DNA from: a virus | Virus record (IMG/VR): IMGVR_UViG_3300044627_004059 | Span: 1-54,978 of that record | DNA length: 54,978 nucleotides | Strand: one strand, 5' to 3' | Part shown: positions 27,721 through 47,165 of the stretch, in pieces | Numbering within the stretch: the first letter of the stretch is position 1 | How the letters are laid out: each line of letters opens with the position of its first letter | Made by a program: the position numbers and the translations under genes | Notes under the pieces: generated by a model | What the model saw: only the letters and a program-made list of their open reading frames with translations | Databases searched by the model: none | Told to the model about the DNA's origin: nothing

Positions 27721-28346
27721 AAATAAGTTATGCAATTACAGTATGTAATGAGTTCATTGAAATTCAACGACTCATTACATTTCTTCTAGAACGCAAAAGA
27801 CCACAAGATGAGATTGTAGTATTAGTTGATACGACAAAGGCAGTACCTGAGTTAATATCCTACCTAGCGCATTGCGAAAGACACCATGAAGGTCATATGA
27901 CAACATGGAAGGATGAATTTAAAGGTAATTTTGCAGATTGGAAAAATAAACTAACGTCATATTGCAACGGAGACTATATTTTTCAAATTGATGCCGATGA
28001 GATGCCATGCACTCCTATTATGGAAGCATTACCGGGTATATTAAGTGCAAATGATGGCGTTGATATGATATGGGTGCCAAGAGTTAACACGGTGCCTGAT
28101 ATAACCGTAGACCACATTAAAAAGTGGGGGTGGCGTGTTAATAGCGAGGGTTGGATTAATTGGCCGGATTGGCAAGGACGAATCTATAAGAATCATCCAT
28201 CAATTCAGTGGGAGAATAAGGTACACGAAAAGTTAACTGGCATTAAAACATTTGCACAGTTACCAATGGAAGAAGATTATTCTTTATATCATCCAAAAAC
28301 AATTGAACGTCAAGTAAAACAAAACGAATATTACGATACATTATAA
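27717..28346 (+). CDS. GT2-like glycosyltransferase, 209 aa
   Basis: A GT-A fold. ISYAITVCNEFIEIQRLITF opens the nucleotide-binding half, and QIDADEMPC holds the DxD metal motif. The later IQWENKVHEKLTG is typical of GT2 members that read WxxxVHE. It is short, so it is probably a minimal domain. Coupled by ATGA upstream and TAATG downstream. Confidence 0.78.
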   Translation: MKISYAITVCNEFIEIQRLITFLLERKRPQDEIVVLVDTTKAVPELISYLAHCERHHEGHMTTWKDEFKGNFADWKNKLTSYCNGDYIFQIDADEMPCTPIMEALPGILSANDGVDMIWVPRVNTVPDITVDHIKKWGWRVNSEGWINWPDWQGRIYKNHPSIQWENKVHEKLTGIKTFAQLPMEEDYSLYHPKTIERQVKQNEYYDTL

Positions 28347-29782: not shown

Positions 29783-30489
29783 CAATATATACATCCATAT
29801 TTGGAGGATACGATAATTTAATTGAACATGAAATTAAATTTCCTGGCATTGATTTTATTTGTTTTTCAGATCGACAATTTGAATCAAAAACATGGAACGT
29901 AATACAATATCCTAAAATTTATTCGGATTCAAATAGAAATGCAAAAAAATTTAAAATACTTCCGCATCGATATTTAAAAGAATATGATTATAGTATATGG
30001 ATTGACGGAAATATGATAGTTAAAGAAAATCCAATTGAATTAATAAATTTATATTTATCTGATTCAAATGTAGCATTTTTTAGTCATGCTAATAATGTAT
30101 TAGATTCAAGAAATTGTATATATCAAGAAGCTCAATATATTTTAGATATAGGTCATAAAAATTATCAACAACGTCCGGATAGAGGAAATCTTTGTTATAA
30201 AGATAATCCTGCTTTAATTACGAAACAAATGGAAAACTATATACATGCTGGATATCCTTCAAATAATGGATTAATAACTGGAATGGTTATTGCGAGACGT
30301 CACAACGAAACAGACTGTATACAAGCTATGGAAGATTGGTGGACGGAGATTTGCTACAATTCTAAACGAGATCAATTAAGTTTTAATTATTGTGCATGGA
30401 AAAATAATTTAAAATTTAATTACATACCAGGAGATTCTCGAGACAATATCTTTTTTAAGAATTTAGGAAAACATATAGGAAAACAATAA
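29767..30489 (+). CDS. DUF616-like putative glycosyltransferase, 240 aa
   Basis: IAIYTSIFGGYDNLIE, then IDFICFSDRQF and YSIWIDGNMIVK match the DUF616/TOD1 group of putative GT-A glycosyltransferases, with WIDGN in the DxD position. The remaining helical part has several Trp and His. It overlaps the previous gene by 16 bases. Confidence 0.68.
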   Translation: MSSKIAIYTSIFGGYDNLIEHEIKFPGIDFICFSDRQFESKTWNVIQYPKIYSDSNRNAKKFKILPHRYLKEYDYSIWIDGNMIVKENPIELINLYLSDSNVAFFSHANNVLDSRNCIYQEAQYILDIGHKNYQQRPDRGNLCYKDNPALITKQMENYIHAGYPSNNGLITGMVIARRHNETDCIQAMEDWWTEICYNSKRDQLSFNYCAWKNNLKFNYIPGDSRDNIFFKNLGKHIGKQ

Positions 30490-30499
30490 TAAAAATAAT

Positions 30500-31210
30500 A
30501 TGATACAAATAGAACAATTAATTAAAACATATCATGAAGATGATATGGGCGGACATGATGTTAATATATTACATATGTCTGAAATACACACGAATTTCGT
30601 TCAGCCTGATTTGAACAAATTTACGTATAATCCAAATGATGATAACGATCAATCTGAATGGTATACAAAACAAAATTTTAATTACGATAATGCTAGAAAG
30701 GAAGAACATAGATTACGTAAATTTAGAATTTTTCATACGTATATGAAAAAGTATAATTGCAAATCTGTTTTAGACGTAGGGTTCGGTAGCGGATATTATA
30801 CTTGGAATTCTGCTATTAATGGATATGATACATTAGGAGCTGACTTTGAAAATGGTGCATATTATACTATGAAAAATATGTTAGAGACTAGTAATATTAA
30901 AAATTTAAGATTGTATAGTTTAAATTCAAATAGTATAGATAATTTAAATGAAACATTCGATGCAGTACTATCTATAGAAGTATTAGAACATATTTTAGAT
31001 CCTATGCCTTTACATGAAAGTCAAATTAAATTATGTAATAAGGTATTTTTTCTTGAAGAGTATTGTGGAGATCGTACAGTCACGGGACATATCGCACCCG
31101 AAGCAGCAAAAAAGCAAATTGTTGAAATGTGTTATGATTATGGTTTTGTAGAAGTACCGATGACATATGGATATCCTCCTCAAATATTTATTAAAAAAGA
31201 ATTACTGTAA
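30500..31210 (+). CDS. Class I SAM methyltransferase, 236 aa
   Basis: KSVLDVGFGSGYYTWNSA is motif I of Rossmann methyltransferases. TLGADFENGA (acidic residue at the end of strand 2) and FDAVLSIEVLEHILDPMPLH (motif post-II/III, VLEHxxDP) follow. Probably methylates a sugar or glycan. Linked to the next gene by TAATG. Confidence 0.8.
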   Translation: MIQIEQLIKTYHEDDMGGHDVNILHMSEIHTNFVQPDLNKFTYNPNDDNDQSEWYTKQNFNYDNARKEEHRLRKFRIFHTYMKKYNCKSVLDVGFGSGYYTWNSAINGYDTLGADFENGAYYTMKNMLETSNIKNLRLYSLNSNSIDNLNETFDAVLSIEVLEHILDPMPLHESQIKLCNKVFFLEEYCGDRTVTGHIAPEAAKKQIVEMCYDYGFVEVPMTYGYPPQIFIKKELL

Positions 31211-32016
31211 TGAAAAATATAGTTTTTATACCTTTTATTAAACGAGAAGATTCATTTACAACAAGATCTGGTATAGGTAAAGCGGGTCGTACTGACGGAT
31301 ATGAATATGGAATTGATTCATGGAAACAATGGTGTAAAAAACACGATTGCGAATTAGTTATAATGGATCAACTACTTATGCCAGAATCTGAAATGTTAAT
31401 AACTTGGCAACGTTGGTGTGTATTAGATATATTAGAACATAATGAAATTGAATATGACCAAGTTTTAGTAGTAGATGCCGATTCAATTGTACACCCAGAT
31501 TGTCCTAATTTTTTCGAATTAACTGATAATAAATTTTCAAGTCCGTTAACGGATGGAGATTATGAATGGGTATGTCGCGCCATTAATGGATATTCTAAAA
31601 TGTTTTTTAATAAAGAATATTGTTTGCCATCATATGAATTTTTTATGACTGGTTTCGTAATCGTTAATAAAACACATAAAGAATTTTTATCCAAAGTAAC
31701 AAATTGGTATTTAGAAAATAAAGATGCGGTTAAACAATCATATGATATTTTATTAACTGGTAGTGATATTGCTTTAATGAATTGTTTACGTAAAGAATTT
31801 GATATCGAATTAAATATACTTCCTAGAGAATACGGAGTAATGGATTTACATCGTAAAAATTTATTGTATGTATCGAACCAATGTTGGTGGAAAGACGATT
31901 TAACTAATTTATACAATTCCGGATGGGTATATCAATTTAATGCAATACCACAAAACGAACTAGGAAGAACTAGAGCATATTTTATGCAACGTATATACAA
32001 TGATTTATATAAATAA
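31210..32016 (+). CDS. Putative GT-A glycosyltransferase, 268 aa
   Basis: ITWQRWCVLDILEHNE followed by VLVVDADSIVHPDCPNFF gives a DxD-type metal motif after a hydrophobic strand, as in GT8 and related GT-A enzymes. YEFFMTGFVIVNKTH and TGSDIALMNCL are also typical late elements. The exact family is uncertain. Confidence 0.62.
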   Translation: MKNIVFIPFIKREDSFTTRSGIGKAGRTDGYEYGIDSWKQWCKKHDCELVIMDQLLMPESEMLITWQRWCVLDILEHNEIEYDQVLVVDADSIVHPDCPNFFELTDNKFSSPLTDGDYEWVCRAINGYSKMFFNKEYCLPSYEFFMTGFVIVNKTHKEFLSKVTNWYLENKDAVKQSYDILLTGSDIALMNCLRKEFDIELNILPREYGVMDLHRKNLLYVSNQCWWKDDLTNLYNSGWVYQFNAIPQNELGRTRAYFMQRIYNDLYK

Positions 32017-32046
32017 TTTGGTTAACTGTAAAAAAATGATTATATT
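32017..32046 (+). promoter_or_regulatory. Putative promoter inside the glycan cassette
   Basis: TTTG at 32017-32020 (followed by G), directly after a stop codon, and TATATT at 32041-32046 with 20 bases between, seven bases before the ATG at 32053. It separates the deoxysugar part of the cassette from the first transferases. Confidence 0.5.
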
Positions 32047-32052
32047 CATAAT

Positions 32053-33231
32053 ATGAAAAAAAATAAAATAGAATTTTTAAATTTAGGCAAACAGCCAATA
32101 GCTAATAAATTTATTGAAAAAACAGATATTGATAATGAGTTTTTCTACAATTTATCAGTTGGCTTTGATAATGAAACCAATTTAATAACTCATATGGAAT
32201 ATGTAGATCCGCCATTAATGTTTAACGAAACTTATGCATACAGAGGGTCTATGTCTAAAACAATGCAAACACATTTTAAAAATTTTAGTAAAATGTTAAA
32301 TTTAGACTCAAATAGTAAAGTATTAGAAATTGGAAGTAATGATGGAGTTTTTTTAAAAAATTGGAATCCGTTAACAACATTTGCAGTTGAACCATGTAGT
32401 AATTTTGCAAAAGAAACAAATGACATGGGATACAAAACATATTCAGAATTCTGGACTACTAACTTAGCTAATCGTATTAAATCGGAACATGGTACCATGG
32501 ATTTAATTTTTGCGGCTAATTGTATATGTCATATTCCGGATTTAGATGAAACGTTTAAAGCGGTACATACTTTATTATCCGATACAGGCTTGTTTATTTT
32601 TGAAGACCCATCGTTAGCTCAAATGATAAACACTAATTCATATGATCAGATATATGACGAACATCCTCATATTTTTTCAGTAATAGCATTACGTAATTTA
32701 CTATCAAGAAATGGTTTAACAATTGTTAAAGTAGATAATATACCCGTACATGGCGGTTCTAATCGTATATACGTAATGAAATCTGAATTTGCAAATGTAG
32801 ATTCTAGTGTAGAAAATAATATTCAATTTGAATTAATGTTAGGGTTAGATAAGTTAGAAACGTTTCAAAATTTCGCAAACAGGGTAGCTCAATCAAAAAC
32901 AGATTTAATTGAATTGTTAACTAGATGTAAACGATTAGGTAAAAAAATTATTAGTTATGGAGCAACTTCAAAATCTACTACCGTATTTAATTATTGCGAA
33001 ATCGATACATCATTAATTGATTATGTAATTGATACTACTCCAGAAAAAATAAGAAAATTAACTCCCGGATCGCATATTCCAATTAAAAATTCAAACGGAA
33101 TTGATTCCGATGTTGATGTAGTATATTTAGGTGCATGGAATTTTGCAACAGAAATTATGAATAAAGAATCAGAATTCATCGAACGCGGTGGTAAATTCAT
33201 TACACACGTTCCAATAGTAAAATTTATATAA
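32053..33231 (+). CDS. Sugar C-methyltransferase (NovU/TylC3-like)
   Basis: 392 residues. FLNLGKQPIANKF at the N-terminus is the tail of the zinc-binding domain of this family, but the usual leading CxxC pairs are absent. The methyltransferase core has KVLEIGSNDGVFLKN and DLIFAANCICHIPDLDETF. IYDEHPHIFSV, VHGGSNRIYVMKS and KIISYGATSKSTTVFNY are signature segments of the C-methyltransferases that act on dTDP-keto-deoxysugars. It suggests a branched deoxysugar. The first gene of the cupin, isomerase and aminotransferase group. Confidence 0.82.
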   Translation: MKKNKIEFLNLGKQPIANKFIEKTDIDNEFFYNLSVGFDNETNLITHMEYVDPPLMFNETYAYRGSMSKTMQTHFKNFSKMLNLDSNSKVLEIGSNDGVFLKNWNPLTTFAVEPCSNFAKETNDMGYKTYSEFWTTNLANRIKSEHGTMDLIFAANCICHIPDLDETFKAVHTLLSDTGLFIFEDPSLAQMINTNSYDQIYDEHPHIFSVIALRNLLSRNGLTIVKVDNIPVHGGSNRIYVMKSEFANVDSSVENNIQFELMLGLDKLETFQNFANRVAQSKTDLIELLTRCKRLGKKIISYGATSKSTTVFNYCEIDTSLIDYVIDTTPEKIRKLTPGSHIPIKNSNGIDSDVDVVYLGAWNFATEIMNKESEFIERGGKFITHVPIVKFI

Positions 33232-33241
33232 TATAGAATAT

Positions 33242-33625
33242 ATGACATTTCATGAAGATGACAGAGCGCAACGATTTCTGGATGTTTTTAACAACATTGA
33301 CGGGCAGATTAACGTGTCATATGTTAATTCTATAGAACATATAGTAGCGTGGCATAAACATAAAATACAAACAGATTATTGGATTTGTTTAAAAGGATCG
33401 TTTAAGGTTGGATTAGCATATGAAGATGGCACAGTTAAATGGGAATATCTGTCAGATAAAAATCCAAGAGTATTAGAAATTACACCAGGTATTTATCATG
33501 GATATAAAGCATTAGAACCAGGATCGATTTTATTATATTATTTAACAAAAAAATATAATCCCGATGACGAAATGCGCGCTGCGGTCGGTGCATTCAATGA
33601 AAGTTGGGATACTATAAATAAATAA
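33242..33625 (+). CDS. RmlC-like cupin, putative dTDP-sugar epimerase
   Basis: 127 residues. A short beta-barrel protein: VAWHKHKIQTDYWICLKGSFKVGLAY, EITPGIYHGYKAL and SILLYYLTKKYNPDDE read like a dTDP-4-dehydrorhamnose 3,5-epimerase (final YN..DE), with His and Lys/Tyr positions in place. It is shorter than RmlC (about 180 aa). It sits between a C-methyltransferase and a ketoisomerase, fitting sugar-nucleotide remodelling. Confidence 0.68.
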   Translation: MTFHEDDRAQRFLDVFNNIDGQINVSYVNSIEHIVAWHKHKIQTDYWICLKGSFKVGLAYEDGTVKWEYLSDKNPRVLEITPGIYHGYKALEPGSILLYYLTKKYNPDDEMRAAVGAFNESWDTINK

Positions 33626-33628
33626 CTT

Positions 33629-34042
33629 ATGGTTACATTAAATAACGTTTTAACATTTAGGCTGCGACAATACGTCGAACAGAATGGTAATTTATTGCCG
33701 ATAGAATTCGATAAGACTATTCCATTTAAACCTAAACGTACTTTTTTTGTATGTAATGTCCCTGATCAACAAATACGTGGTTGTCATGCACATTATAAAA
33801 CAAAACAATTAATAATATGTCTTAACGGTGAAATAACAGTTAAATTACATGATGGTAATAATGCACGATCATATGTATTAACAAGTGGCGATGCTATTTA
33901 CATACCAAATTTAATTTGGGACGAACAGATGTATCATTCAGTAGATACCGTGTTAGTATCGTTATGTAGTACACACTACGATACGGATGATTATATTCAT
34001 AATTTCGACGAGTTTGTAAAATTAAAAAAAAATAAAAAATGA
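33629..34042 (+). CDS. dTDP-4-keto-6-deoxyglucose 3,4-ketoisomerase (FdtA/QdtA-like)
   Basis: 137 residues. GNLLPIEFDKTIPFKPKR, then RGCHAHYKTKQLIICLNGE, and IYIPNLIWDEQMYHS, CSTHYDTDDYIHNFDEF match the FdtA/QdtA (WxcM-like) cupins that shift the keto group from C4 to C3 of dTDP-6-deoxyhexose. The following aminotransferase would then make a 3-amino sugar. Starts four bases after the previous stop. Confidence 0.82.
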   Translation: MVTLNNVLTFRLRQYVEQNGNLLPIEFDKTIPFKPKRTFFVCNVPDQQIRGCHAHYKTKQLIICLNGEITVKLHDGNNARSYVLTSGDAIYIPNLIWDEQMYHSVDTVLVSLCSTHYDTDDYIHNFDEFVKLKKNKK

Positions 34043-34058
34043 ATTTTTTAGAAGAATT

Positions 34059-34700
34059 ATGAATAAATGTAAAATACCGCATCTATCAATAGATAATTTT
34101 ATTCCATCAAATGCATTAGTACGAGCAGCTGCTAATAGTTTCCATCACGGTATGGATTGGGTTAAGTATGATGCTAGTGATAATCAAATACAATATTGTT
34201 CTAAGCTCGGCAGAGAAAACTTACCACTGGCTGCAGCACTTTGTTTGGATTACATAGCAACTAATTTTGACCCTAATACAGCTTTTAACGGTCTGACAAC
34301 AAATGCATTTCCAGACTTAACACATTATGGGGGAGGAATGATGATAACTCCTAATTCAAATAATGAGGGTGGATTCTTAGGAATGCATATAGATGCAGAA
34401 GTCCATGGACTGCATAACGATTGGAAACGAGAATATAGTGCTATACTTTGTTTATCTGAAGAATTTGACGAATCTTTTGATCTTAGACTACATGATGGCG
34501 TAAACCATACTCGAGTACCTTATAAGTTTAATACATTAAATATTTTTAAGTGTAGTGAATATTCATGGCACGGATTTCCAGAAATAACAAACGGCATGGA
34601 TCGTAAAACGTTAGGAGTTATGTTTTGGTCTAAAATGACTGATGAAGATAAAAAGAGAGAGAAGATAAAAGCTAGATTTAATAATAATTTACAGTTTTAG
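34059..34700 (+). CDS. 2-oxoglutarate/Fe(II)-dependent oxygenase
   Basis: 213 residues. The iron-binding facial triad is H110-x-D112 (in GMHIDAEVH) and H171 (in YSWHGFP), with R182 about eleven residues later as the 2-oxoglutarate-binding arginine. This is the double-stranded beta-helix pattern of prolyl hydroxylase-like enzymes. The substrate could be a sugar, glycan-linked side chain or protein. A GAAGAAT ribosome site precedes the ATG. Confidence 0.78.
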   Translation: MNKCKIPHLSIDNFIPSNALVRAAANSFHHGMDWVKYDASDNQIQYCSKLGRENLPLAAALCLDYIATNFDPNTAFNGLTTNAFPDLTHYGGGMMITPNSNNEGGFLGMHIDAEVHGLHNDWKREYSAILCLSEEFDESFDLRLHDGVNHTRVPYKFNTLNIFKCSEYSWHGFPEITNGMDRKTLGVMFWSKMTDEDKKREKIKARFNNNLQF

Positions 34701-34710
34701 TATTACTACA

Positions 34711-35418
34711 ATGAAAATTCTTATCTCAGGTGGCGACGGTAAGTTTGCAAAAGAATTGCAAATTCAGAATTCGAATTTTGAATTAATTTTATTGTCTAAA
34801 ACCAAAATGGATATTACTAATTTATCATCGATAAATAATGCTATTGATAAGTATAAGCCTGATGTCTTTATTCATACAGCTGCATTATCTCGTCCAATGA
34901 TAGTACATGATACGAATCCAGATAAAAGTATTCAGTTAAATATCATAGGTACTTCTAATTGTGTATTAGCATGCATGCAGCATAACATTAAAATAGTATA
35001 CATCTCTACCGATTTTATTTATCCTGGGATTAATGGAAATTACAAAGAAACTGATCCGATATATCCCGTCAATAAGTATGCTTGGTCAAAGTTAGGCGGA
35101 GAATGTTCTTGTATGTTGTATGAAAATTCTTTAATATTACGTATAGCAATGTTTGTTAAACCATTTCCGCACGATAAAGCATTTGTAGATAGTTTTAAAA
35201 GTCCTTTATGGAATGATGAAGCTGCAAAAATACTACTAAGATTAATTGAATTAAATGCTACCGGAATTTATAATATCGGAGGAGAAAAAAAATCAATATA
35301 TGATTTTGTAATACGAGAAAATTTCAATATATTAAAAGAAAATAAAGCTAATATCAAAGAAAACGTGCCAACAGATGTTAGTATGAATCTTACTAAATTA
35401 AATGATATTTTGTTATGA
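34711..35418 (+). CDS. RmlD-like NAD(P)-dependent sugar reductase/epimerase
   Basis: 235 residues. ILISGGDGKFAKEL gives the N-terminal GxxGxxA-type dinucleotide site, DVFIHTAALSRPM and VYISTDFIYPG are family segments, and YAWSK (about 122-126) is the YxxxK catalytic pair. Shorter than RmlD (about 290 aa), with a reduced C-terminal substrate domain. Probably reduces the 4-keto group of a dTDP-deoxysugar. Overlaps the aminotransferase by four bases. Confidence 0.75.
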   Translation: MKILISGGDGKFAKELQIQNSNFELILLSKTKMDITNLSSINNAIDKYKPDVFIHTAALSRPMIVHDTNPDKSIQLNIIGTSNCVLACMQHNIKIVYISTDFIYPGINGNYKETDPIYPVNKYAWSKLGGECSCMLYENSLILRIAMFVKPFPHDKAFVDSFKSPLWNDEAAKILLRLIELNATGIYNIGGEKKSIYDFVIRENFNILKENKANIKENVPTDVSMNLTKLNDILL

Positions 35419-36338
35419 TACAATTATTTAACATTCCAAATTATACAATCGATACTTCGAAGTTTTCGCATTATTTGCATGGCACTAATGTAACAGATTT
35501 TGAACAACGTTTTGCAGAATATGTAGGTGCAAAATATGCAGTTAGCGTTAATAGTGCAACAAATGCTATTTTTTTAATGTTTTTAAACAAAAACTTAACT
35601 ATTAATGTTCCGTCAATGATTCCTCCGGTTGTACTAAATGCGTTAATTACATCTGGAAATAAAATTAATTTTATAGACGATACTGAGTGGATTGGCGGAT
35701 CGTATACATTGCATAAATTTGAAGATTATAAAATTATTGATTCTGCGCAACGAGTAGATGCAAATCAGTTTAAAATAGAAGCTAATGAAAATGATTTAAT
35801 GTTTTTTAGTTTTTATCCTACAAAACCAGTAGGCAGTACGGATGGTGGTATTATAGTTAGTAACGATAAACAAAAAATCGATTATTTACGAATGTTATCA
35901 TTTAACGGAATGTCGTTTGCTGAAAACAATTGGGATAGGAAAATATGTATGCCTGGTTATAAGTTTTATATGAATAGTATTCAAGCATATATTGCAAATG
36001 AAAATTTATCTAAATTAGAACATAAAAAACAACGATTATTTGAAGTACGACATATTTATAATAAAGAATTAGGTTATAATAATACAAGCGAACATTTGTA
36101 TAGAATTAATGTTAAAGATCGCGATGAGTTTATAAAACATATGAAATCCGTCGGTATATTATGTGGTATTCATTACGAATCGCAACATTGCAATGATGTT
36201 TATACTAAATCTGTAAAATTTATTTGTCCAAATTCTGAATTAGAATCATTAACTACCGTCAGTATTCCATTTCACGAATCTTTAACTAAAAACGAAGTAA
36301 TCCACATTATTAAAAATATTAAGTATGCGACTATGTGA
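35415..36338 (+). CDS. DegT/DnrJ/EryC1-type sugar aminotransferase
   Basis: 307 residues. FEQRFAEYVGAKYAVSVNSATNAIFL is the PLP-binding start, and FFSFYPTKPVGSTDGG holds the catalytic Lys near residue 137 before the conserved GG. The C-terminal half includes YKFYMNSIQAYIANENL, typical of this family. It is about 60 residues shorter than usual. It would aminate the 3-keto sugar made by the FdtA-like isomerase. Overlaps the next gene by 14 bases. Confidence 0.8.
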   Translation: MIQLFNIPNYTIDTSKFSHYLHGTNVTDFEQRFAEYVGAKYAVSVNSATNAIFLMFLNKNLTINVPSMIPPVVLNALITSGNKINFIDDTEWIGGSYTLHKFEDYKIIDSAQRVDANQFKIEANENDLMFFSFYPTKPVGSTDGGIIVSNDKQKIDYLRMLSFNGMSFAENNWDRKICMPGYKFYMNSIQAYIANENLSKLEHKKQRLFEVRHIYNKELGYNNTSEHLYRINVKDRDEFIKHMKSVGILCGIHYESQHCNDVYTKSVKFICPNSELESLTTVSIPFHESLTKNEVIHIIKNIKYATM

Positions 36339-36855
36339 ACAACATAAATATCAAGAAAATGAACGATGTATTCATGAATTTGTAAAAACACATCAACCTA
36401 AAACAATTGTTGAATTAGGCTACGGCTCTGGTGCATTAACGGTTGCTATGAGTTATGCTTGTAGAGAATACAATGGTTTGATTTTTTCTTATGATATGAT
36501 ATCTCCAAATTTAGCTATTTCTAGATTAACGGAACGAAATTTATATGATTTATGTACTATAACTCAAGGAAACGTTTACAAAACGTATTTAGTTGACCCA
36601 ATACCATTTGATATGATATTGATAGATATTGATAATACATGGGAACTGATATTTGATGTTGTTATTAACAATGAATTTATCAATAAACAAATTAAACAAG
36701 GTTCTAAAGTGATTATCGAAGGCGGTGCTGATTTACATCCTCGAATAAATAAAACTACATTGAAACATTTTCATAATACAATTGGAAAAGACGTATTCGA
36801 ATTTACACACATATCAGGCCCTCGAACTAGTTTATCTATTTTAAATTTATTATGA
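36325..36855 (+). CDS. SAM methyltransferase-like protein, 176 aa
   Basis: TIVELGYGSGALTVAMSYA is a motif I-like Gly-rich loop, and FDMILIDIDNTWELI follows at the motif III position. The protein is short. The rest, with IIEGGADLHPRINK, does not point to a known substrate. Probably a sugar or glycan methyltransferase. Coupled to the next gene by ATGA. Confidence 0.6.
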   Translation: MRLCEQHKYQENERCIHEFVKTHQPKTIVELGYGSGALTVAMSYACREYNGLIFSYDMISPNLAISRLTERNLYDLCTITQGNVYKTYLVDPIPFDMILIDIDNTWELIFDVVINNEFINKQIKQGSKVIIEGGADLHPRINKTTLKHFHNTIGKDVFEFTHISGPRTSLSILNLL

Positions 36856-37718
36856 AAAAATTAGCAGTTATAGCCTCCGGCTGGCATTATGCATATCAAT
36901 TTTATGAAGGCATCGCTTCGCAGAGTATTCCAGCTGATTTACATGTTGATTTATTTGTTATTAGTCATAGAAAACCTGATGATTTTAATACGATAAATGA
37001 AAAAGAATACATCAGACAGTATAACGGCGATAATTTACTTTATAAATTAGATAAAGAGTTGTATAAAAAAGTTATTACGAAACAAGATTTATCTAATATG
37101 GGTTGGAAATATCTCGAAAAGCCTAATACTATCGGAGATATGGAAGTTTTTAACCAATGGTCAGAAGATTATGATTTTAAAGATTACGATATATTTCTTA
37201 TCACGCACGATGATAATTTAATTTTATCTGACCAACTGTTCGTTGATATTTTTAGTAATGAAATTAAATTATTTAAACCTATATACGAATCTAGATATGG
37301 ATCTACGGGACATCAATTTAAAACCCATATGGTACAAAATGAATTGGATTGGATGTTTTTAGATAATGGATATTCCGAATATATTCCTAAAGCATATACT
37401 CCACGTGGTTCTTTTAGTTTTTATACAAAAGAACTTATAAATTTATTACCAGAACATAAATTTCCAATGGATAATATATCATTAACTAGAGTCGGGTTAA
37501 CTAATTCGGGTGAATACAAAGATTTAACCGAATGGAATACAAATGCTGGAAATTTTAGAAATTTTTTATATAAAGATTCGTTAGTAGAAAAAACTCGATG
37601 GTTATCGGAAACTAAACGAGTTAGTAAATATTGTATCGAAGGCGAACGAGGATTCATTCATAATAACAATAGCAATGAATTTCATTATGAAAACGCCGTT
37701 AAAAACATTATATCATGA
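36852..37718 (+). CDS. Hypothetical protein of the glycan cassette, 288 aa
   Basis: No family I can name. The start KLAVIASGWHYAYQFYEGI, then DLFVISHRKPDDFN, and DYDIFLITHDDN near residue 115-125 look like a GT-A-type nucleotide-sugar site (hydrophobic strand before THDD). A role as a glycosyltransferase is inference from that and from context. ATGA overlaps on both sides. Confidence 0.5.
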   Translation: MKKLAVIASGWHYAYQFYEGIASQSIPADLHVDLFVISHRKPDDFNTINEKEYIRQYNGDNLLYKLDKELYKKVITKQDLSNMGWKYLEKPNTIGDMEVFNQWSEDYDFKDYDIFLITHDDNLILSDQLFVDIFSNEIKLFKPIYESRYGSTGHQFKTHMVQNELDWMFLDNGYSEYIPKAYTPRGSFSFYTKELINLLPEHKFPMDNISLTRVGLTNSGEYKDLTEWNTNAGNFRNFLYKDSLVEKTRWLSETKRVSKYCIEGERGFIHNNNSNEFHYENAVKNIIS

Positions 37719-38446
37719 TAACAAATCCTATAATACATGACAGACACATAGTTAAAAACTATTTTGAAAATATGGTTTTTAATAATATACACAAAAATAA
37801 ATTTATTACGCCAAAAGATCTTACAATTGTAACATGTAGAAACTTAGGTACTATGGAAGATAGAATTATCAATTCTTTATCTGGATATGAACATAAATCA
37901 ATATTAGAATGTAATTTAGAATATTTAGGAATTAATGATTTAGTTGTATTGACTGACAATCGATTGCCATGGCGAAATACTTTTAAAATTGAAATGATTT
38001 ATAATTATCTTCAATCTGGTAAGTGTACTACAAAATACATTATGTATTGCGATGCAATTGATGTAATTTTTATTGACGATCCGAATCGCGTAATAGATAT
38101 TTTTAAAGCACATGAATGTAAAATGTTATTCATGTCAACGCCAGCTAAACATGGTTATGCACTTATGCCACAAATAAAACAATGGGCAGATAAACTTAGT
38201 ACTAGATATTTAAATTCTGGCGTATGGATAGGTGAAACTGATTTCGTATACGATGTATTTCATGAAGCACGTAACTATATAACTCCACATGGTGCTACAA
38301 TGGATAAGTTATCCGAATATTGGAATTCGAAACCAGAAAATTTTCCAATTGGGTCTGATGATCAAGATATACTAAGATTTATTCAACCTAAATTTCATCC
38401 AGAACTTAAAGTTGATTATGATAATATAATAGCATATAGAAATTAA
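37715..38446 (+). CDS. Putative procollagen-galactosyltransferase-like protein, 243 aa
   Basis: YIMYCDAIDVIFIDDPNRVID holds a DxxD-type metal site after a hydrophobic strand. RYLNSGVWIGETDFV and IGSDDQDILRFIQ resemble the late elements of PLOD-type glycosyltransferases. The N-terminus TIVTCRNLGTMEDRI is unlike theirs. Coupled to the preceding gene by ATGA. Very AT-rich gap of 28 bases after it. Confidence 0.55.
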   Translation: MITNPIIHDRHIVKNYFENMVFNNIHKNKFITPKDLTIVTCRNLGTMEDRIINSLSGYEHKSILECNLEYLGINDLVVLTDNRLPWRNTFKIEMIYNYLQSGKCTTKYIMYCDAIDVIFIDDPNRVIDIFKAHECKMLFMSTPAKHGYALMPQIKQWADKLSTRYLNSGVWIGETDFVYDVFHEARNYITPHGATMDKLSEYWNSKPENFPIGSDDQDILRFIQPKFHPELKVDYDNIIAYRN

Positions 38447-38474
38447 AAAAAAATTTTTTTATTTTAAAAAATAA

Positions 38475-39413
38475 ATGAAAATAGCATTTTTTACAGAAAT
38501 GGGATTTTCTGGTAAAATACCAAGAACCCATGATAACATGAGAACGGAATTTGCATGGATGTGTGCGTTGAATTCTGATCATATTAACATAAATCACGCA
38601 TTGACTGAATTTGAATATATAGAAGCACCAGTTTATGATTTAGGTATAGTTATTATTCCTAAACATGTTAAAGAATTTGATATCAATAAATTAAAAACGA
38701 TTTGTAATAAAATTGCAGTAATGCAAGAAGGTCCAAATTGGCTTTGGCAAGACTATTCATTAGAACAACAAATTTGGTATTTCAATACATTAACATCTGC
38801 AGATATTATTTTTACACACAATGAAACGGATCGAAAATATTATCAAGGATTAACGACTCATCCGGATGTACGCGTATTGCCTAGTTTGATGATTGAAGAT
38901 TCTATAGGAGAATTAAAAATTGAAGAACGCCAAGATGTTATTATAGGTGGAAATTTTGTGTCTTGGTATGGTGGATTCGATTCTATGATTATAGCTAAAG
39001 AACTAGGAGATGTAGTATATGCGCCATCAATGGGTCGAAAACAACCCCTCGAAGACCAATTGGTTACGCATCTTCCATATATGAATTGGAAACAATGGAT
39101 CCATGAATTAAATAAGTTTAAATATGGTATTCATTTAATGCGAACTCACGCTGCCGGTACATTTGCATTGAATTGTTCGTATTTAGGAATTCCGTGTATA
39201 GGATACAAAGGATTAGATACTCAAGAACAACTTCATCCGGATTTAACAGTTGAATTAGGAGACTTAACATCTGCTAGAAAACTTGCGGCAAAACTTAGGA
39301 CGAATGAAGAATTTTATTTATATTGTAGTAATATAACAAAAAGATTATACGAAGAAAAATATCATGAAAATAAGTTTTATACAACCTTCACGGAACAATT
39401 TAAAGTATCTTAA
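38475..39413 (+). CDS. GT-B-like glycosyltransferase, 312 aa
   Basis: KIAFFTEMGFSGKIPRTHDN opens the protein, VMQEGPNWLWQD and DVIIGGNFVSWYGGFDS lie in the middle, and FKYGIHLMRTHAAGTFALNCSYLGIPCIGY is a donor-domain segment of GT-B enzymes (glycine-rich turn, then strand). The protein is smaller than the GT4 members at 24947 and 26434. Its 3' end overlaps the next gene by 50 bases. Confidence 0.65.
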   Translation: MKIAFFTEMGFSGKIPRTHDNMRTEFAWMCALNSDHININHALTEFEYIEAPVYDLGIVIIPKHVKEFDINKLKTICNKIAVMQEGPNWLWQDYSLEQQIWYFNTLTSADIIFTHNETDRKYYQGLTTHPDVRVLPSLMIEDSIGELKIEERQDVIIGGNFVSWYGGFDSMIIAKELGDVVYAPSMGRKQPLEDQLVTHLPYMNWKQWIHELNKFKYGIHLMRTHAAGTFALNCSYLGIPCIGYKGLDTQEQLHPDLTVELGDLTSARKLAAKLRTNEEFYLYCSNITKRLYEEKYHENKFYTTFTEQFKVS

Positions 39414-40572
39414 ATGGTCTTACGACGCAATCAGAAAAAATCAAGGCAATCATGAAGTAGAAATTTGCGTTGCAGATGATTTCAGCGATAAAGATGGTAC
39501 TTGGGATTGGTGTGTAGAAATGATGGAAAAAGATCCATTATTCAGAGCAATTCGTAATGAAGGTCCAGCTCGCCTAGGACATACAATATTGTATGATCGT
39601 TTAGTTAATGAAGTAGCATCATTCGATATTTGTATGATATATCATGCGGATATGTATCTATGTCCTGGAGCTTTGGATGCGATTGAAAAACATATTGGTT
39701 CCAAAAAAATTGTATCATTAACACGAATCGAACCTCCATTACATCCACCTGGACCAGAAAAGGTATTATTAAATTGTGGAGTTGAACCGGAACAATTTAA
39801 TGAAGATAAATTACTACATCATTTAGAAATGGAGTATGATATCGTATACGATGATAAAACAACTGAAGGTATATTTGCTCCATGGGCATTCATGAAATAC
39901 GATTTCCAAGAGATAGGAGGACACGATCCATTATATGCTCCGCAGTCAAAGGAAGATTCGGATATATTCAATCGATTTCAATTAAATGGAGTTTCATTCA
40001 TACAAACATGGGAAGGGTTTGTTTATCATATGACTTGCAGAGGTAGTAGATTTAATCCTACGTTAACAACCCCAGGACAAAATTCTCCGGAATGGGAAGC
40101 TCAGAATATAAGATCAACTCGAAACTTTATTCGTAAATGGGGACACTTTTGTAAACACGATACATTAATGAAACCTATAATACCGCCAAAATATAACATA
40201 GCATTTGTTGTTAAAAATTGCAATTCATATTTATTAGAAGCATTAGAACCATGGTGTGATAGAATATACATAGAAGATGATATGCAAGTATTAACGACGC
40301 ATTACATTGATAAGGAACAATCTAACACGGCATTTGACTTAACAAAACGAGTATTTTGTATCGGATACAACGATCCAAATGCAGAAAATGATATCGTTAT
40401 TGAAATCGATAGAAATCGGTTTTCGGAACAAGATTTTCAATACATTCAAATGATGTCAGAAATCATACAAAGTTCCGGAGAAGTAGGAGACTTTAAATTA
40501 GAAAATTTAAAAGTAACAATTAATCATTTAGAAACATACGAAAAAGATTTAATAATATGCGAAATGCAATAG
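39364..40572 (+). CDS. GT2-like glycosyltransferase, 402 aa
   Basis: ISFIQPSRNNLKYLKWSYDA is the N-terminal strand and helix of GT2 enzymes, EICVADDFSDKDGT supplies the base-binding Asp pair, ICMIYHADMYLCPGALDAI the DxD-type metal site, and PWAFMKYDFQEIGGHDPLYAPQSKEDSDIFNRF the downstream catalytic acidic motif. The start at 39364 is deep inside the previous gene, but the conserved fold begins right there, so the 50-base overlap is real. The last 150 residues are of unknown type. Confidence 0.78.
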   Translation: MKISFIQPSRNNLKYLKWSYDAIRKNQGNHEVEICVADDFSDKDGTWDWCVEMMEKDPLFRAIRNEGPARLGHTILYDRLVNEVASFDICMIYHADMYLCPGALDAIEKHIGSKKIVSLTRIEPPLHPPGPEKVLLNCGVEPEQFNEDKLLHHLEMEYDIVYDDKTTEGIFAPWAFMKYDFQEIGGHDPLYAPQSKEDSDIFNRFQLNGVSFIQTWEGFVYHMTCRGSRFNPTLTTPGQNSPEWEAQNIRSTRNFIRKWGHFCKHDTLMKPIIPPKYNIAFVVKNCNSYLLEALEPWCDRIYIEDDMQVLTTHYIDKEQSNTAFDLTKRVFCIGYNDPNAENDIVIEIDRNRFSEQDFQYIQMMSEIIQSSGEVGDFKLENLKVTINHLETYEKDLIICEMQ

Positions 40573-41465
40573 TAACAGGCGGTGCTGGATTTATAGGATC
40601 TACCATGACCGATCGTTTAATAAACGAAGGATACCATGTATTAGTAATTGATAATTTATCAACCGGCAAAGCTGAGAACGTTAATGATTTAGCTGAATTT
40701 CATAGAAAAGATTTAGCAGAAATTGATATACATGAATTAACGGTATTATTCGGAGGAGCGGATGTAGTTTTTCATTTTGCAGCATTAGCACGCGTACAAC
40801 CTTCAATTGAAGATCCGATTACATTTAATACAGCGAATGTACAAGGTACTTTAAAAGTATTATTAGCAGCACATCGTGCAAAAGTTAGACGTGTAGTTTA
40901 CAGTGCATCATCTTCTGCATATGGGAATACTGTTATTTTTCCGACTCCAGAAACCCATGGCACCAATCCGTTGTCCCCATATGGTTTACAAAAATTAATT
41001 GGCGAACAATATTGTAAAATGTTTAGCGAAGTATATGGATTAGATACGGTATCATTGCGTTATTTTAATGTTTATGGCGAACGTATGTCTACCGAAGGTG
41101 CTTATTGTTTGGTTATGGGAATATTTGCAAAACAATTGTTAAACGGGCAACCATTAACAATTACCAATGATGGCAATCAACGAAGAGACTTTACTTATGT
41201 AGATGATGTAGTTGAAGCCAATTGGTTAGCTGCCAATTATTCGGAATCATTAAATGGAGAAATTTTCAACATCGGAAATGGAAGTAACTATTCAGTTAAT
41301 GAAGTAGCAGATATGATGGGTGGAGAAAAAACTTACGGCAATCCTCGTATAGAACCATTTGCAACATTAGCTGATAATTCTAAGGCAAAAGAAATTTTAG
41401 GATGGATTCCAAAAGGACACTTACCTACCTGGATTGAAAAATATAAAGAACAACTAGGTCTTTAA
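40557..41465 (+). CDS. GalE-like NAD-dependent sugar-nucleotide epimerase
   Basis: 302 residues. VTGGAGFIGSTMTDRL is the NAD-binding loop, FHFAALARVQPSIEDP and VVYSASSSAYGN follow, and SPYGLQKLIGE holds the YxxxK pair (Y about 142). RYFNVYGERMS and RRDFTYVDDVVEAN complete the extended short-chain dehydrogenase pattern. It interconverts UDP-hexoses or acts on a related nucleotide sugar. The last gene of the cassette. Confidence 0.85.
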   Translation: MRNAIVTGGAGFIGSTMTDRLINEGYHVLVIDNLSTGKAENVNDLAEFHRKDLAEIDIHELTVLFGGADVVFHFAALARVQPSIEDPITFNTANVQGTLKVLLAAHRAKVRRVVYSASSSAYGNTVIFPTPETHGTNPLSPYGLQKLIGEQYCKMFSEVYGLDTVSLRYFNVYGERMSTEGAYCLVMGIFAKQLLNGQPLTITNDGNQRRDFTYVDDVVEANWLAANYSESLNGEIFNIGNGSNYSVNEVADMMGGEKTYGNPRIEPFATLADNSKAKEILGWIPKGHLPTWIEKYKEQLGL

Positions 41466-41541: not shown

Positions 41542-41814
41542 ATGGCATTTCAAAACTTTAAACAAATCTTTAAAAACTCTAACGATTACAACGAAAAAAC
41601 TATTATCGGATTCATGTCTTTTGCTGTAATGGCAATTGCTATGATAGTTGATTTAGTTACCGGCGCATTTGGAAACGAACTTCGTTTAAATGAATACATT
41701 TACAATTCATTTGTAATTGTTACATTGGGAAGTTTAGGTATAGCTGGTCTAGAAAAATTTGCTAAAGGCGGAGGAGAAACTAAACAAAATAATAATGACG
41801 AAGAAATAGGTTAA
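41542..41814 (+). CDS. Small membrane protein, holin-like, 90 aa
   Basis: Two hydrophobic segments (about 24-42 and 53-70) are separated by a short charged loop, and a Gly-rich, acidic, Asn-rich tail follows. This two-helix layout fits a class II holin or an accessory lysis protein. The ribosome site is AAAGGAAAAG. It leads the lysis region directly upstream of the PAS protein. Confidence 0.5.
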   Translation: MAFQNFKQIFKNSNDYNEKTIIGFMSFAVMAIAMIVDLVTGAFGNELRLNEYIYNSFVIVTLGSLGIAGLEKFAKGGGETKQNNNDEEIG

Positions 41815-41843: not shown

Positions 41844-42962
41844 ATGAAAAACCTATCAAAAGAAGAGTTATTAAGCAGGATAGAAGCAATTAATAGGAGT
41901 AATGCTCTTATTTATTTCGATCTTAATGGTATTATATTAGGCGTTAATGACATTTTTTTGGAAGCAATGGGTTATGGTATAGGCAATCACGAAGAACTTA
42001 TCGGTAAACATCATAGCATTTTTGTATGTGAAGATTATTCAAAATCATATGAGTATGAAAAGTTTTGGGATATCTTAAGAAGCGGAAAGTATTATCAAGG
42101 TGAGTTTGAACGACGAAGAAAAGATGGAAGTCTTATCAATCTGCAAGCAACTTATAACCCTATTTTTGATGAAAGTGGTAAAATAACCAAAATAATGAAA
42201 GTTGCGACTGACATTAGTGCAATTGTCAATAGTAAAAAACAAATAGATGCAATCAACAGAAGTACAGCTCTTATTAGTTTTAACACAGATGGTTTTATAA
42301 CAGAGGTTAATTCTATATTTTTAGAAACGATGGGATACAAAGCCAATGAAAAAGCTAAAGTTATTGGTAAGCATCACAGTGTTTTTGTAAGCTATGAGTA
42401 TTCTAAATCTGACGAGTATGCCAAGTTTTGGGAAAATCTAAGAAAGGGTAAATACTTTGATGGAGTATTTGAAAGAAGAAAAGTAGATGGCTCTATTGTA
42501 TATCTACAAGCATCTTATAACCCCGTACTTGATAGTAAAGGGAATATTACAGATGTAGTTAAGATTGCAACTGATATAACAGAAGCTGTAAATAATAAAA
42601 CAAAAATAGAGGCTCTTACAAAGAATTTACAGGCAGAACTAGACAATTCACAAAAGCTAAAGAATGCAATAGAATTAGAAAAGGATGCAGCTTTGAATGA
42701 CTTAGATGTAATGATGAAAAAAAGTCAGAGTGAGCTAATAAAAATCATTGTAAAAGTTGCCTTGTCTGTTATAGTTGGAGTTGGGCTTGTAACAACACTA
42801 TTATATTGGGTTGCAATTATAACAGAGCAAGACACGCAAATAATAGGATCAACTTGGAGTAATATGTTTAGTGTATTACTAACAAACGCATTTTCAATAG
42901 TAGGTACGATCATGGGTATCAAGTATGCTACTCATGAGCCTGGAAGTAAACAAAAAAAATAA
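41844..42962 (+). CDS. Tandem-PAS sensor protein with C-terminal membrane domain, 372 aa
   Basis: Two PAS domains (about 16-125 and 137-250) are near copies: INRSNALIYFDLNGIIL against INRSTALISFNTDGFIT, and IGKHHSIFVCEDYSKS against IGKHHSVFVSYEYSKS. They match the PAS domains of methyl-accepting chemotaxis proteins such as BdlA and Aer-like receptors. A charged coiled-coil stretch (about 250-298) follows, then two membrane segments (about 302-326 and 338-362). No kinase, chemotaxis signalling or cyclase domain is present. The wording of codons, with more CTT and AGG, looks unlike the neighbours and suggests recent transfer. Its place between a holin-like gene and the endolysin suggests control of lysis, which is inference. 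Confidence 0.8.
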   Translation: MKNLSKEELLSRIEAINRSNALIYFDLNGIILGVNDIFLEAMGYGIGNHEELIGKHHSIFVCEDYSKSYEYEKFWDILRSGKYYQGEFERRRKDGSLINLQATYNPIFDESGKITKIMKVATDISAIVNSKKQIDAINRSTALISFNTDGFITEVNSIFLETMGYKANEKAKVIGKHHSVFVSYEYSKSDEYAKFWENLRKGKYFDGVFERRKVDGSIVYLQASYNPVLDSKGNITDVVKIATDITEAVNNKTKIEALTKNLQAELDNSQKLKNAIELEKDAALNDLDVMMKKSQSELIKIIVKVALSVIVGVGLVTTLLYWVAIITEQDTQIIGSTWSNMFSVLLTNAFSIVGTIMGIKYATHEPGSKQKK

Positions 42963-42993: not shown

Positions 42994-43797
42994 ATGGTAC
43001 TAAAAAGAGGTGACAACAACGAACTAGTTAAAAAAGTTCAAGCAGTTTTAGGAGTAGAACAAGTAGGTAATTTTGGACCTAAAACGGAAGAAGCAGTTAA
43101 AGCGTGGCAAACTAAAAATGGTTTAACTCCCGATGGAGTAGTTGGACCAGCTACGTTAGCTAAAATGGGAATAGTAGTAGAAACGAAAGCTGCAGCTCCT
43201 GCAAAAGCTACTAAGTTTACTAGAGAACAAATCGAGACTGCAATCAAAGCTAAAGGATATAAATGGTTCGGTGATAAAGATTATGAATTGAATATCATCG
43301 GAATACGAAATGCAGATACCGGACAAAAAGTAACAAATTTGTTTGATGATTGGTTAACGTTATCTTATAAACTAGAAGGAGTTTGGAAATTTCATATATG
43401 GCCAGCAACTACCGATCCTGGAACGAAAGGTGTTATGCAATATGGTAACAAAGCTGGAGTTGCTAGACTAGTAGAAGGACAATATATCGGGTCACACATC
43501 ATGAGACTTCATGCCGGCAAATACGAAGCTTTAGGACAAAATAAACCAGTTAAAGTATTTAGAGATCCAAACAAAGATATGAAGTACGATGAAACCAAAA
43601 TCCAAGAAGGAGTATTTGGTATCAATATTCATAAAGCCGGCGCGGATTCGACATATGTAGAAAATTGGTCAGAAGGATGTCAAGTATTTAAACGTTCAGC
43701 AGACTTCGAAGAGTTTATGGCTATTTGTCGCAAAGCTAAAGCAGCACATGGAAATACATTTAACTATACATTGTTAAAATCAACAGATATTAAATAA
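42994..43797 (+). CDS. Endolysin: peptidoglycan-binding domain plus YkuD-like domain
   Basis: 267 residues from the ATG at 42994. The frame stays open to 42925, inside the PAS gene. An N-terminal PG_binding_1 domain (about 1-65; VKKVQAVLGVEQVGNFGPKT, VKAWQTKNGLTPDGVVGP) is followed by an Ala/Lys-rich linker. The C-terminal part (about 75-267) ends with GINIHKAGAD and WSEGCQVFKRS, the His and SxGC residues of L,D-transpeptidase-like enzymes in several phages. It would cut or remodel the cell wall. Its stop overlaps the holin start (TAATG). Confidence 0.72.
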   Translation: MVLKRGDNNELVKKVQAVLGVEQVGNFGPKTEEAVKAWQTKNGLTPDGVVGPATLAKMGIVVETKAAAPAKATKFTREQIETAIKAKGYKWFGDKDYELNIIGIRNADTGQKVTNLFDDWLTLSYKLEGVWKFHIWPATTDPGTKGVMQYGNKAGVARLVEGQYIGSHIMRLHAGKYEALGQNKPVKVFRDPNKDMKYDETKIQEGVFGINIHKAGADSTYVENWSEGCQVFKRSADFEEFMAICRKAKAAHGNTFNYTLLKSTDIK

Positions 43798-44219
43798 TGA
43801 AAACAACAGTACTTGCAATATATTTTTCGTTATCGACTATGTTAACTTTTATTTGTACTTATTTCTTTAACCTAACAATGAATCATTATGATCAATACTT
43901 GGCATTGATTTCTGTAGTATTCATCGATGGTTTTTTTGGCGTGATTGCAGGAATAAAACGCGAAGGATTTCAAACTCGTAAAGCAATTAAAGTTTTAAAA
44001 ACAGCAGCAGTATGGTGTGCATTCTTAACAGTACTGTTGTCAGTTGAAGATGCATATAAAGGTACTGGTTGGTTAAGTGAAACTATATTGATACCTTTTA
44101 TTGTATTTCAAATCATGAGTGCATTAAAAAATGCATCGATGGCTGGATTTATTAAAGCAAAATTGTTGAATCAAATTCTAGATAAATTTGACGACCATAA
44201 AGGCGTACGAGATAAATAA
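43797..44219 (+). CDS. Phage holin family protein, 140 aa
   Basis: Four hydrophobic segments (about 5-25, 34-52, 66-84 and 92-110) with FIDGFFGVIAGIKREGFQTRK between the second and third. This DxxxGxxxGxKxxG pattern is that of the phage_holin_4-type family. It would release or permeabilise the membrane for the endolysin. Coupled to the endolysin by TAATG. Confidence 0.72.
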   Translation: MKTTVLAIYFSLSTMLTFICTYFFNLTMNHYDQYLALISVVFIDGFFGVIAGIKREGFQTRKAIKVLKTAAVWCAFLTVLLSVEDAYKGTGWLSETILIPFIVFQIMSALKNASMAGFIKAKLLNQILDKFDDHKGVRDK

Positions 44220-44934: not shown

Positions 44935-46284
44935 ATGATCCAAGAATACATTACACAGAAAACACTTAATCCAAAGCTTTGGAGCAATGGTAAACTTCGT
45001 AAGAAACTTCGTGCTGGATTCTTAAAAATTGCCAATGAATTTTACAAGTTTCTAGATGTCGATGCAGCTGTAAAAGACATCATAATCATTGGTAGTAGTG
45101 CCAATTACAATTGGACAGAACATAGTGATATAGATTTGCATGTAGTTATTAATTACGGTCAAGTTGGAGACAATTTGCATTTGGTTAAAAATTACATGCA
45201 CGCTAAAAAAAGCATATGGAATGAAAATTATCCATTATCATTAAAAGGCATGAACATTGAATTGTATGCACAAGATGTTAACGAAAAACTACATTCTACA
45301 GTAGCATCTTATTCTTTGATGCAAAATAAATGGTTAACGAAACCAACGGCTGATATGATTTCAATTGATGATGCTATCATACAACAAAAGGCAGAACCGT
45401 ATGAATATGAAATTGATGAATTAAAAGATACAGACCCGCATATCGAAAAGAAAATACAAAGTCTTAAAACCAGACTACGTCATTTACGACAAACCGGATT
45501 AGATGCGGAAGGAGAATATTCTATAGAAAATATGGCGTATAAACATCTACGTAATAAAGGCTATTTAGAACGTTTAAACCGTCTTGAACAAAAGGTTACA
45601 ATGGGTCGCCTTTCTGTAGAAGAAGCTGTAAATGAATTCAATATACCCCAAATGATAGACAAAGGCAAGTCTCAAGTAAAAACTTTCGTGTCAGCCATGA
45701 AAAATGAAACTTTAGAGACAAAACACGCATTAAAAATGATTCTAGATCATTTAAATGGAGAAAAATTAACTCCCGAAGAATGGTCATGGGTTCGTGGCCA
45801 AATGAAAGATGTCGTTAAAATGCTAGGATTAACTACGATGGCAGTAGCTCCAGGAGGAAGTTTAGTAGCACTATTAGCAAAAGCACTTAAGGCCGATAAA
45901 TACATTTTGCCGTCTTCATTTCAAAAACAAGATGAAAAAGAAGTTACCGAATCTTTAGTAATGCACGTTACTGGTAAGAAAACTTTAGATACGGATGGGT
46001 GGGATGATATAATTAAAAAAACCGGGGCTGTTACAACGCATCGGGGACAATGGGATCACCCCGGTCAATGCACAATGATTCCTGGTAATCAAATTACAAT
46101 GAAGAACGTTGCATATCCAGTAATGGGAATAGATGACACCGGACACGCACAAATGATGCACCCGGAACAAGATTATGATTATCCCGGTACTAAAGTTTTT
46201 GAAATACCACATACAGCACAATGGCAAACTATGTTAATGCGGCTTCAAAATGTAATACGTAATGGAACAAACTATGCAAAGTAA
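44935..46284 (+). CDS. Nucleotidyltransferase fused to a LETM1-like segment, 449 aa
   Basis: The N-terminal part is an MNT/KNTase-type nucleotidyltransferase: IIIGSSANYNWTEHSDIDLHVVI gives G53-S54 and the metal aspartates D65 and D67. About residues 279-332 read LTPEEWSWVRGQMKDVV, then VAPGGSLVALLAKALKADKYILPSSF. This matches the LETM1 signature (KDVxKxL..LPGG..L......LLPSSF). The final ~100 residues are of unknown type. The enzyme would transfer a nucleotide to an alcohol, protein or RNA. The next gene starts inside its 3' end. Confidence 0.62.
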   Translation: MIQEYITQKTLNPKLWSNGKLRKKLRAGFLKIANEFYKFLDVDAAVKDIIIIGSSANYNWTEHSDIDLHVVINYGQVGDNLHLVKNYMHAKKSIWNENYPLSLKGMNIELYAQDVNEKLHSTVASYSLMQNKWLTKPTADMISIDDAIIQQKAEPYEYEIDELKDTDPHIEKKIQSLKTRLRHLRQTGLDAEGEYSIENMAYKHLRNKGYLERLNRLEQKVTMGRLSVEEAVNEFNIPQMIDKGKSQVKTFVSAMKNETLETKHALKMILDHLNGEKLTPEEWSWVRGQMKDVVKMLGLTTMAVAPGGSLVALLAKALKADKYILPSSFQKQDEKEVTESLVMHVTGKKTLDTDGWDDIIKKTGAVTTHRGQWDHPGQCTMIPGNQITMKNVAYPVMGIDDTGHAQMMHPEQDYDYPGTKVFEIPHTAQWQTMLMRLQNVIRNGTNYAK

Positions 46285-46997: not shown

Positions 46998-47165
46998 ATG
47001 AAACTTACAAAAGAACAAATTTTAGGAATCGTTCGTCATGCATTAACATTTGTTGGGGGTATCTTTGTGATGAAAGGATTAATCGAAGAAACCGTAGTAA
47101 CAGAAATCGTAGGTGGTGCAATGACACTTACCGGCGCTATTTGGTCTATCATAGAAAAGGCATAA
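46998..47165 (+). CDS. Pam3-gp28-like putative holin, 55 aa
   Basis: A short frame encoding a 55-residue protein: ILGIVRHALTFVGGIFVMKG, then ETVVTEIVGGAMTLTGAIWSI and a lysine end. Two membrane helices with the RxxLxxxGG...KG...G...GaxWS pattern match the Pam3-gp28 holin group. It is the real gene here. A longer out-of-phase frame overlapping it is not coding. The ribosome site is AAAGGAAA. Confidence 0.7.
   Translation: MKLTKEQILGIVRHALTFVGGIFVMKGLIEETVVTEIVGGAMTLTGAIWSIIEKA

Follow-up and report, generated by a model that had tools for sequence, protein, structure and literature searches.

The 372-aa protein discussed here is, we propose, a signal-gated membrane effector that sets the time of lysis, a reading to which we give a probability of about 0.6. 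The proposal draws on features read directly from the sequences: the domain make-up, membership of a lysis cassette, a C-terminal membrane hairpin shared with other phage proteins, the swapping of the sensors attached to it, and an operon for a kinase and response regulator that accompanies one form of the protein exclusively. The gene was found in a stretch of viral DNA of 54,978 nucleotides (IMG/VR record IMGVR_UViG_3300044627_004059), which is referred to throughout as the window.

The time of lysis is usually described as the point at which holin has built up to a threshold, and the classic cue that is sensed is superinfection. A hairpin that is driven by a built-in PAS or GAF domain, or by an adjacent relay, suggests that these phages time lysis by intracellular conditions. 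We put at even odds the broader view that phages encode complete one- and two-component circuits with an invariant membrane effector, that lysis timing thereby depends on the host's redox, energy or metabolite state, and that the sensors are exchanged in cassette fashion. Hundreds of environmental phage contigs combine a dedicated sensor, one- or two-component, with one membrane effector encoded among the lysis genes or close to them, and this effector, the near-invariant hairpin, is new. If the proposal is correct, host killing and the release of cell contents depend on the physiology of the host, and because the sensors can be swapped, the cue is open to test.

Structure of the protein and its surroundings

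The sequence-only reading had described two near-copy PAS domains, a coiled coil and two C-terminal membrane helices, encoded between a holin-like protein and a peptidoglycan-binding endolysin, and our analysis agrees on both counts (Table 1). Pfam identifies two PAS stretches (PAS_3 3e-25, PAS_9 6e-21), the PAS_3 match being at 88.7 bits for a gathering score of 25.6, and the two domains are 58% identical over 118 aa. An AlphaFold model (mean pLDDT 72; weak alignment depth) has a PAS fold in each half, then a single helix from residue 246 to 327 that continues into the first transmembrane helix (TM1), with the second (TM2) at 331-362. There are 4 K/R residues on either side of the membrane helix pair and 0 in the short loop, and the PAS domains are therefore placed in the cytoplasm, with an N-in/C-in topology. 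Pfam gave no MCPsignal match and the protein is not a methyl-accepting chemotaxis protein; there were 0 matches to any holin family in Pfam or PHROGs.

Table 1. Features of the hairpin gene and of the lysis genes around it in the window
Feature	Position	Strand	Basis
sTM, 90-aa two-helix membrane protein, candidate holin	41542..41814	+	Relatives' loci; homologue in Flavobacterium phage immuto
PAS-PAS-hairpin protein, 372 aa	41844..42962	+	ORF, Pfam, IMG/VR relatives, AlphaFold model
PAS domain 1, residues ~16-127, invariant W75, H56/H57	41889..42224	+	Pfam, model, invariant columns
PAS domain 2, residues ~135-250, invariant W196, H177/H178	42246..42593	+	Pfam, model, invariant columns
Long signalling helix/coiled coil, residues 251-301	42594..42746	+	Model; homologous to helix of two-component form
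Transmembrane helix 1, residues ~302-326	42747..42821	+	Sequence, model, charge pattern
Invariant loop and transmembrane helix 2, the shared effector hairpin, residues 331-363, TQIIGSTWSNMFSVLLTNAFSIVGTIMGIKYAT	42834..42932	+	Conservation
Endolysin, PG_binding_1 and phrog_3000 domain	42994..43797	+	Pfam, PHROGs
Holin, Phage_holin_4_1 (PF05105)	43797..44219	+	Pfam 2.6e-6; 58% identical to annotated holin of immuto
Holin, Phage_holin_10 (PF23987, Pam3 gp28 family)	46998..47165	+	Pfam 1.4e-16

The small membrane protein sTM has no Pfam match. The Phage_holin_10 gene is the second Pfam holin of the window, 3 kb downstream of the PF05105 holin, and the phage may thus hold several holin-type genes. 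Kinship of the hairpin with a 104-aa membrane protein encoded at 44222 was tested and no homology was found.

Conservation and distribution

When the whole protein was used to search IMG/VR, relatives came up on at least 218 contigs, the best 80 of which are 82-100% identical to it across the full length; with the C-terminal 86 residues as query, the number rose to at least 587 contigs. The loci that we discuss are a sample, comprising the best 80 per scan and including copies of the same contig.

For the relatives the median pS is 0.51 and the median pN 0.063, so that the conservation is due to purifying selection on the protein, and recent transfer or copying is ruled out as its cause. The pN of neighbouring genes is 0.09-0.40, with sTM the most variable partner considered (pN 0.40, about 40% identity). 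The most conserved part of the protein is the hairpin, residues 331-363 (TQIIGSTWSNMFSVLLTNAFSIVGTIMGIKYAT, 33 residues), which is identical in 50/50 non-redundant PAS-PAS relatives. Synonymous codons vary across this segment as often as in the rest of the gene, and the constraint therefore acts on the amino acids of the hairpin; a cause at the RNA or DNA level for the invariant C-terminus is ruled out on the same grounds.

One might see in the gene no more than an ordinary fragment of a bacterial chemoreceptor or kinase, captured by the phage and without phage function, and the PAS pair is indeed about 40% identical to PAS domains of bacterial MCPs and hybrid kinases. However, purifying selection over the full length and the invariance of the hairpin refute this reading. 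Furthermore, no bacterial hairpin protein was found in a scan, made without a positive control, of 395 Bacteroidota genomes or among the bacterial matches, and the PAS domains form a clade that groups with phage kinases (below). We consider capture without function extremely improbable. The form with an N90 domain, described below, was likewise not found in 198 Bacteroidota genomes, again scanned without a positive control.

PAS proteins had been said to be rare in phages, but they are not rare in this phage group. The phage collection had no record matching the hairpin or the N90 form. Its Listeria phage matches and MT836939, in which PAS domains are with bacterial-type outputs or are unannotated, were set aside; MT836939.1 (our locus L082) is filed as a bacteriophage, has a PAS protein with a chemoreceptor-like C-terminus and may be a bacterial fragment.

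Place in the lysis cassette

The contigs of 71 close relatives continue for more than 1.5 kb downstream, and in 70 of them there is an endolysin-type gene within 2.6 kb of the hairpin gene; these endolysins belong to four unrelated families: GH24 lysozyme, GH19 chitinase, M15 peptidase and the PG_binding/phrog_3000 type. A stricter recount of unique proteins, taking 3 kb on both sides and including more distant members, found an endolysin nearby for 40/47 PAS-PAS, 6/6 single-PAS, 2/2 GAF and 22/45 N90 proteins. Three near-whole contigs of 116-120 kb and the window have matches to endolysin-family profiles solely beside the hairpin gene, and each has one hairpin gene and one sTM gene. The earlier assignment of the gene to a lysis cassette is thus well supported, both by the four kinds of endolysin beside the relatives and by the whole contigs, where this is the sole cassette. 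The genes upstream in the window are scarcely shared among the relatives, with the exception of two near-identical contigs. The commonest partner of the hairpin gene is sTM, which is upstream or downstream and adjacent in most loci, and in some loci a PF05105 holin was not detected nearby.

Some of the N90 forms adjoin other late genes, and as fewer than half have a recognised endolysin within 3 kb, lysis may not be the sole outcome. This bears on the suggestion that the protein has another role at the host membrane late in infection, for instance in excluding superinfection or in adjusting the energy or ion balance of the host, and that it is among lysis genes simply because these are late membrane genes. 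Such a role would accommodate the half of the N90 forms with no recognised endolysin nearby, as well as the invariance of the hairpin, which might bind some conserved protein of the host. Against this, endolysins of four kinds stay near the PAS and GAF forms almost without exception, however much the rest of the neighbourhood changes, and we think a role apart from lysis unlikely.

The cultured Flavobacterium phage vB_FspM_immuto_2-6A has the gene order sTM, GH19 chitinase, PF05105 holin. Its cassette is closely related to those of loci L027, L044, L048, L059, L062 and L067 (sTM 72-78%, GH19 80-83% and holin 77-88% identical), and it lacks the PAS gene that in those six separates sTM from GH19; L044 has one additional small gene in the same interval. 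The PAS-hairpin gene is therefore an added regulator and not a core lysis gene.

The presence or absence of the gene between otherwise similar cassettes, together with the frequent adjacency of sTM on either side, would suit an antiholin-type brake, a special case of the effector model in which the protein holds the cassette holin until a signal, for example failing respiration or a declining host, lets it go. Known antiholins are commonly encoded beside holins and are non-essential (PMC7182436). However, if the protein were a brake shaped to sTM, the two should vary together, and the hairpin is invariant while sTM is only about 40% identical, so that we regard a brake as rather improbable. 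Invariance of the hairpin alongside a variable sTM favours self-assembly, or a conserved host partner, over a contact tailored to sTM.

One hairpin with exchangeable sensors

A pattern scan for the hairpin, and a second with a hairpin variant, gave four architectures with the same hairpin, in which it follows two PAS domains, a single PAS domain, a GAF domain or a domain of about 90 aa that we call N90. Contig copies being counted, there are 165 complete PAS-PAS-hairpin ORFs, 120 N90-hairpin ORFs and 21 single-PAS-hairpin ORFs of about 248 aa by our first rule, with a few more of the last scored as "other". The GAF-hairpin form is represented by three different proteins (Pfam GAF 2e-17). N90 is in no Pfam family, and a guess that it corresponds to phrog_1544 failed.

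Comparison of the PAS and N90 family profiles by hhalign gave a probability of 100 and E of 6e-47, with 54% identity over the 117 columns of helix and hairpin, and when 204 unique proteins from the four architectures are compared, the hairpin columns remain nearly invariant. It had been argued from the sequence that the membrane domain is the output, and an invariant hairpin common to proteins with very different sensors bears this out. As the same hairpin comes either with a built-in sensor or with a kinase relay, we conclude that there is one membrane effector, with one- and two-component versions.

The small and polar residues of TM2 cluster on one face of the helix (R 0.73, p 0.0004), an arrangement that would suit packed helices or a pore. 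The Eisenberg moment calculated for TM2 was not significant. A second special case of the effector model is that hairpins themselves form a pore gated by the signal, in the manner of a holin or pinholin, and that their assembly collapses the membrane potential and fires lysis. Its attractions are the small/polar stripe, the long dimer-type helix, the loci with no PF05105 holin detected nearby, and an invariance beyond what a variable sTM explains and which fits self-assembly. However, the window already has two Pfam holins and sTM, immuto manages without the hairpin gene, there is no homology to holins and the moment test failed to reach significance. A pore is possible, but we hold it to be doubtful. 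The proposal of the sequence-only reading that this is a sensor-coupled holin or antiholin is less well supported than its other points: there is no match to a holin family, candidate holins are already in place, and a cultured phage has the cassette but not the gene.

In a tree of PAS domains all those fused to the hairpin are in one clade (99/81), and their neighbours are PAS domains of the kinases of these phages. Bacterial PAS domains fall outside, with support that is not strong (92/69; few columns). The tree would fit fusion within phages followed by duplication of the PAS domain.

The two-component form

Directly upstream of the N90 genes are a gene for a receiver protein of 143-145 aa (Pfam Response_reg) and one for a sensor histidine kinase (Pfam HATPase_c) that has membrane helices and PAS domains and, in some cases, GAF domains. 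In loci with sufficient upstream sequence the pair is present at 63/65 for N90, as against 0/80 for the PAS and GAF forms (Fisher p 2e-39). The full relay is therefore found beside those hairpin proteins that lack a sensor of their own. As a rule the N90 gene starts where the receiver gene ends or just inside it (a gap of 0 or -3 in 42 cases).

The H, N and G boxes are present in 71-79 of 80 kinases, and the phospho-acceptor D and the K of the receiver in 69-72 of 72 regulators. With these residues and with adjacent genes, the N90 sister form has the marks of a two-component system. The earlier statement that there is no kinase holds for the genome in the window but not for the sister form, in which histidine kinase and response regulator are phage-encoded. 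At the N90 loci L295 and L297 the kinase and regulator are absent and a gene for a 427-aa protein is in their place. On large phage contigs there are also, read from translations, apparent DnaK and NusG genes near the two-component form (L339 5117-7003; L310 1472-2017).

The cue sensed by the PAS form

The PAS domains had been likened to those of bacterial chemoreceptors, and they are indeed of the chemoreceptor-type class. The best PDB match of the pair, by sequence (6e-12) and by fold (1e-15), is the tandem PAS of MmoS (3EWK), an FAD redox sensor. After MmoS, the sequence search gave Aer and NifL, likewise FAD PAS proteins. Trp75 and Trp196 align with the Trp of AerC and Aer and are invariant among the relatives; where Aer has its second Trp, this family has Tyr or Phe. 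AerC, of the PAS_FAD2 class, has two cytoplasmic PAS domains and holds its FAD by means of a Trp that Aer also has (PMC13401364).

By analogy with this class we infer that the PAS pair binds FAD. Given the kinship to MmoS, Aer and NifL and the invariant Trp residues, redox or energy state would be the likeliest cue of the PAS form. The GAF forms should read another cue.

A model for the function

As to the ligand, the direction of the effect (trigger or delay), the way the protein acts physically and its role in lysis timing, we infer the following. The cytoplasmic PAS pair would read an intracellular state, most likely redox or energy through bound FAD, and the signal would travel along the long dimer-type helix to the invariant two-helix hairpin, which would change state. 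The hairpin would then set the time of holin triggering, either by its own effect on membrane permeability or by acting on the holin. In the sister phages the signal would pass from histidine kinase to response regulator, to the adaptor domain of about 90 aa and so to the same hairpin. In models of both the PAS and N90 forms the sensor, long helix and hairpin are in one rigid line, resembling other signalling helices.

Comparison with known systems

With regard to bacterial proteins, the AerC/BdlA-type tandem-PAS chemoreceptors and MmoS also have two similar PAS domains in tandem with an invariant Trp in each. The 372-aa protein differs in having no MCP, kinase or GGDEF output and in ending in a hairpin that we have not seen in bacteria; whereas AerC-type outputs act on motility, its output is that membrane hairpin. 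Bacterial two-component systems resemble the N90 loci in having kinase and regulator, with their catalytic residues, in one operon. However, the N90 relay is phage-encoded, its regulator has no DNA-binding domain and the gene that follows, within the lysis cassette or close to it, encodes a membrane effector.

Among phage proteins, the antiholin-holin pairs RI/T of T4 and ArrA/TeaA of ICP1 bring about a lysis inhibition that has been termed the first environmental sensing by phages (PMC7182436). They too have a phage membrane protein that tunes lysis time to a condition, as we propose for the hairpin protein, but they sense superinfection, lack PAS, GAF and phospho-relay, and no sequence kinship to the hairpin protein was found. 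The Phage_holin_4_1 (PF05105) and Phage_holin_10 (PF23987) proteins are also small membrane proteins of the same cassette, but they are not homologous to the hairpin and are separate genes of the window.

VqmA has a PAS domain, and its phage counterpart is a DNA-binding transcription factor for the lysogeny decision, in contrast to the hairpin protein with its membrane output beside an endolysin. VqmA-phage, from vibriophage VP882, is a phage-encoded sensor that feeds into lysis of the host (PMC8284805). Our search of the literature on PAS with holins, on phage two-component systems and on lysis sensors found no description of such a protein, a weak absence as the search covered few subscription journals and preprints.

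Host and other genes of the window

The host of the phages with the hairpin gene is probably a member of the Bacteroidota. In the window sTM and the holin match a Flavobacterium phage and the endolysin matches Bacteroides phages. The replication genes are T4-like (UvsX, a DnaB-type helicase and DNA polymerase), and the nearest relative of the DNA polymerase (14576-17080) is in Microcystis phage Mel-JY01 (43.6%). With lysis genes and polymerase nearest to different phages, the host of the window phage is less certain and its origin may be mosaic.

Ahead of the lysis cassette is a long series of glycosyltransferase-like and NAD-epimerase-like genes (24947-41465). Directly past the lysis genes is a gene (44935-46284) for a 449-aa protein with an N-terminal nucleotidyltransferase domain (NTP_transf_2, phrog_36119).
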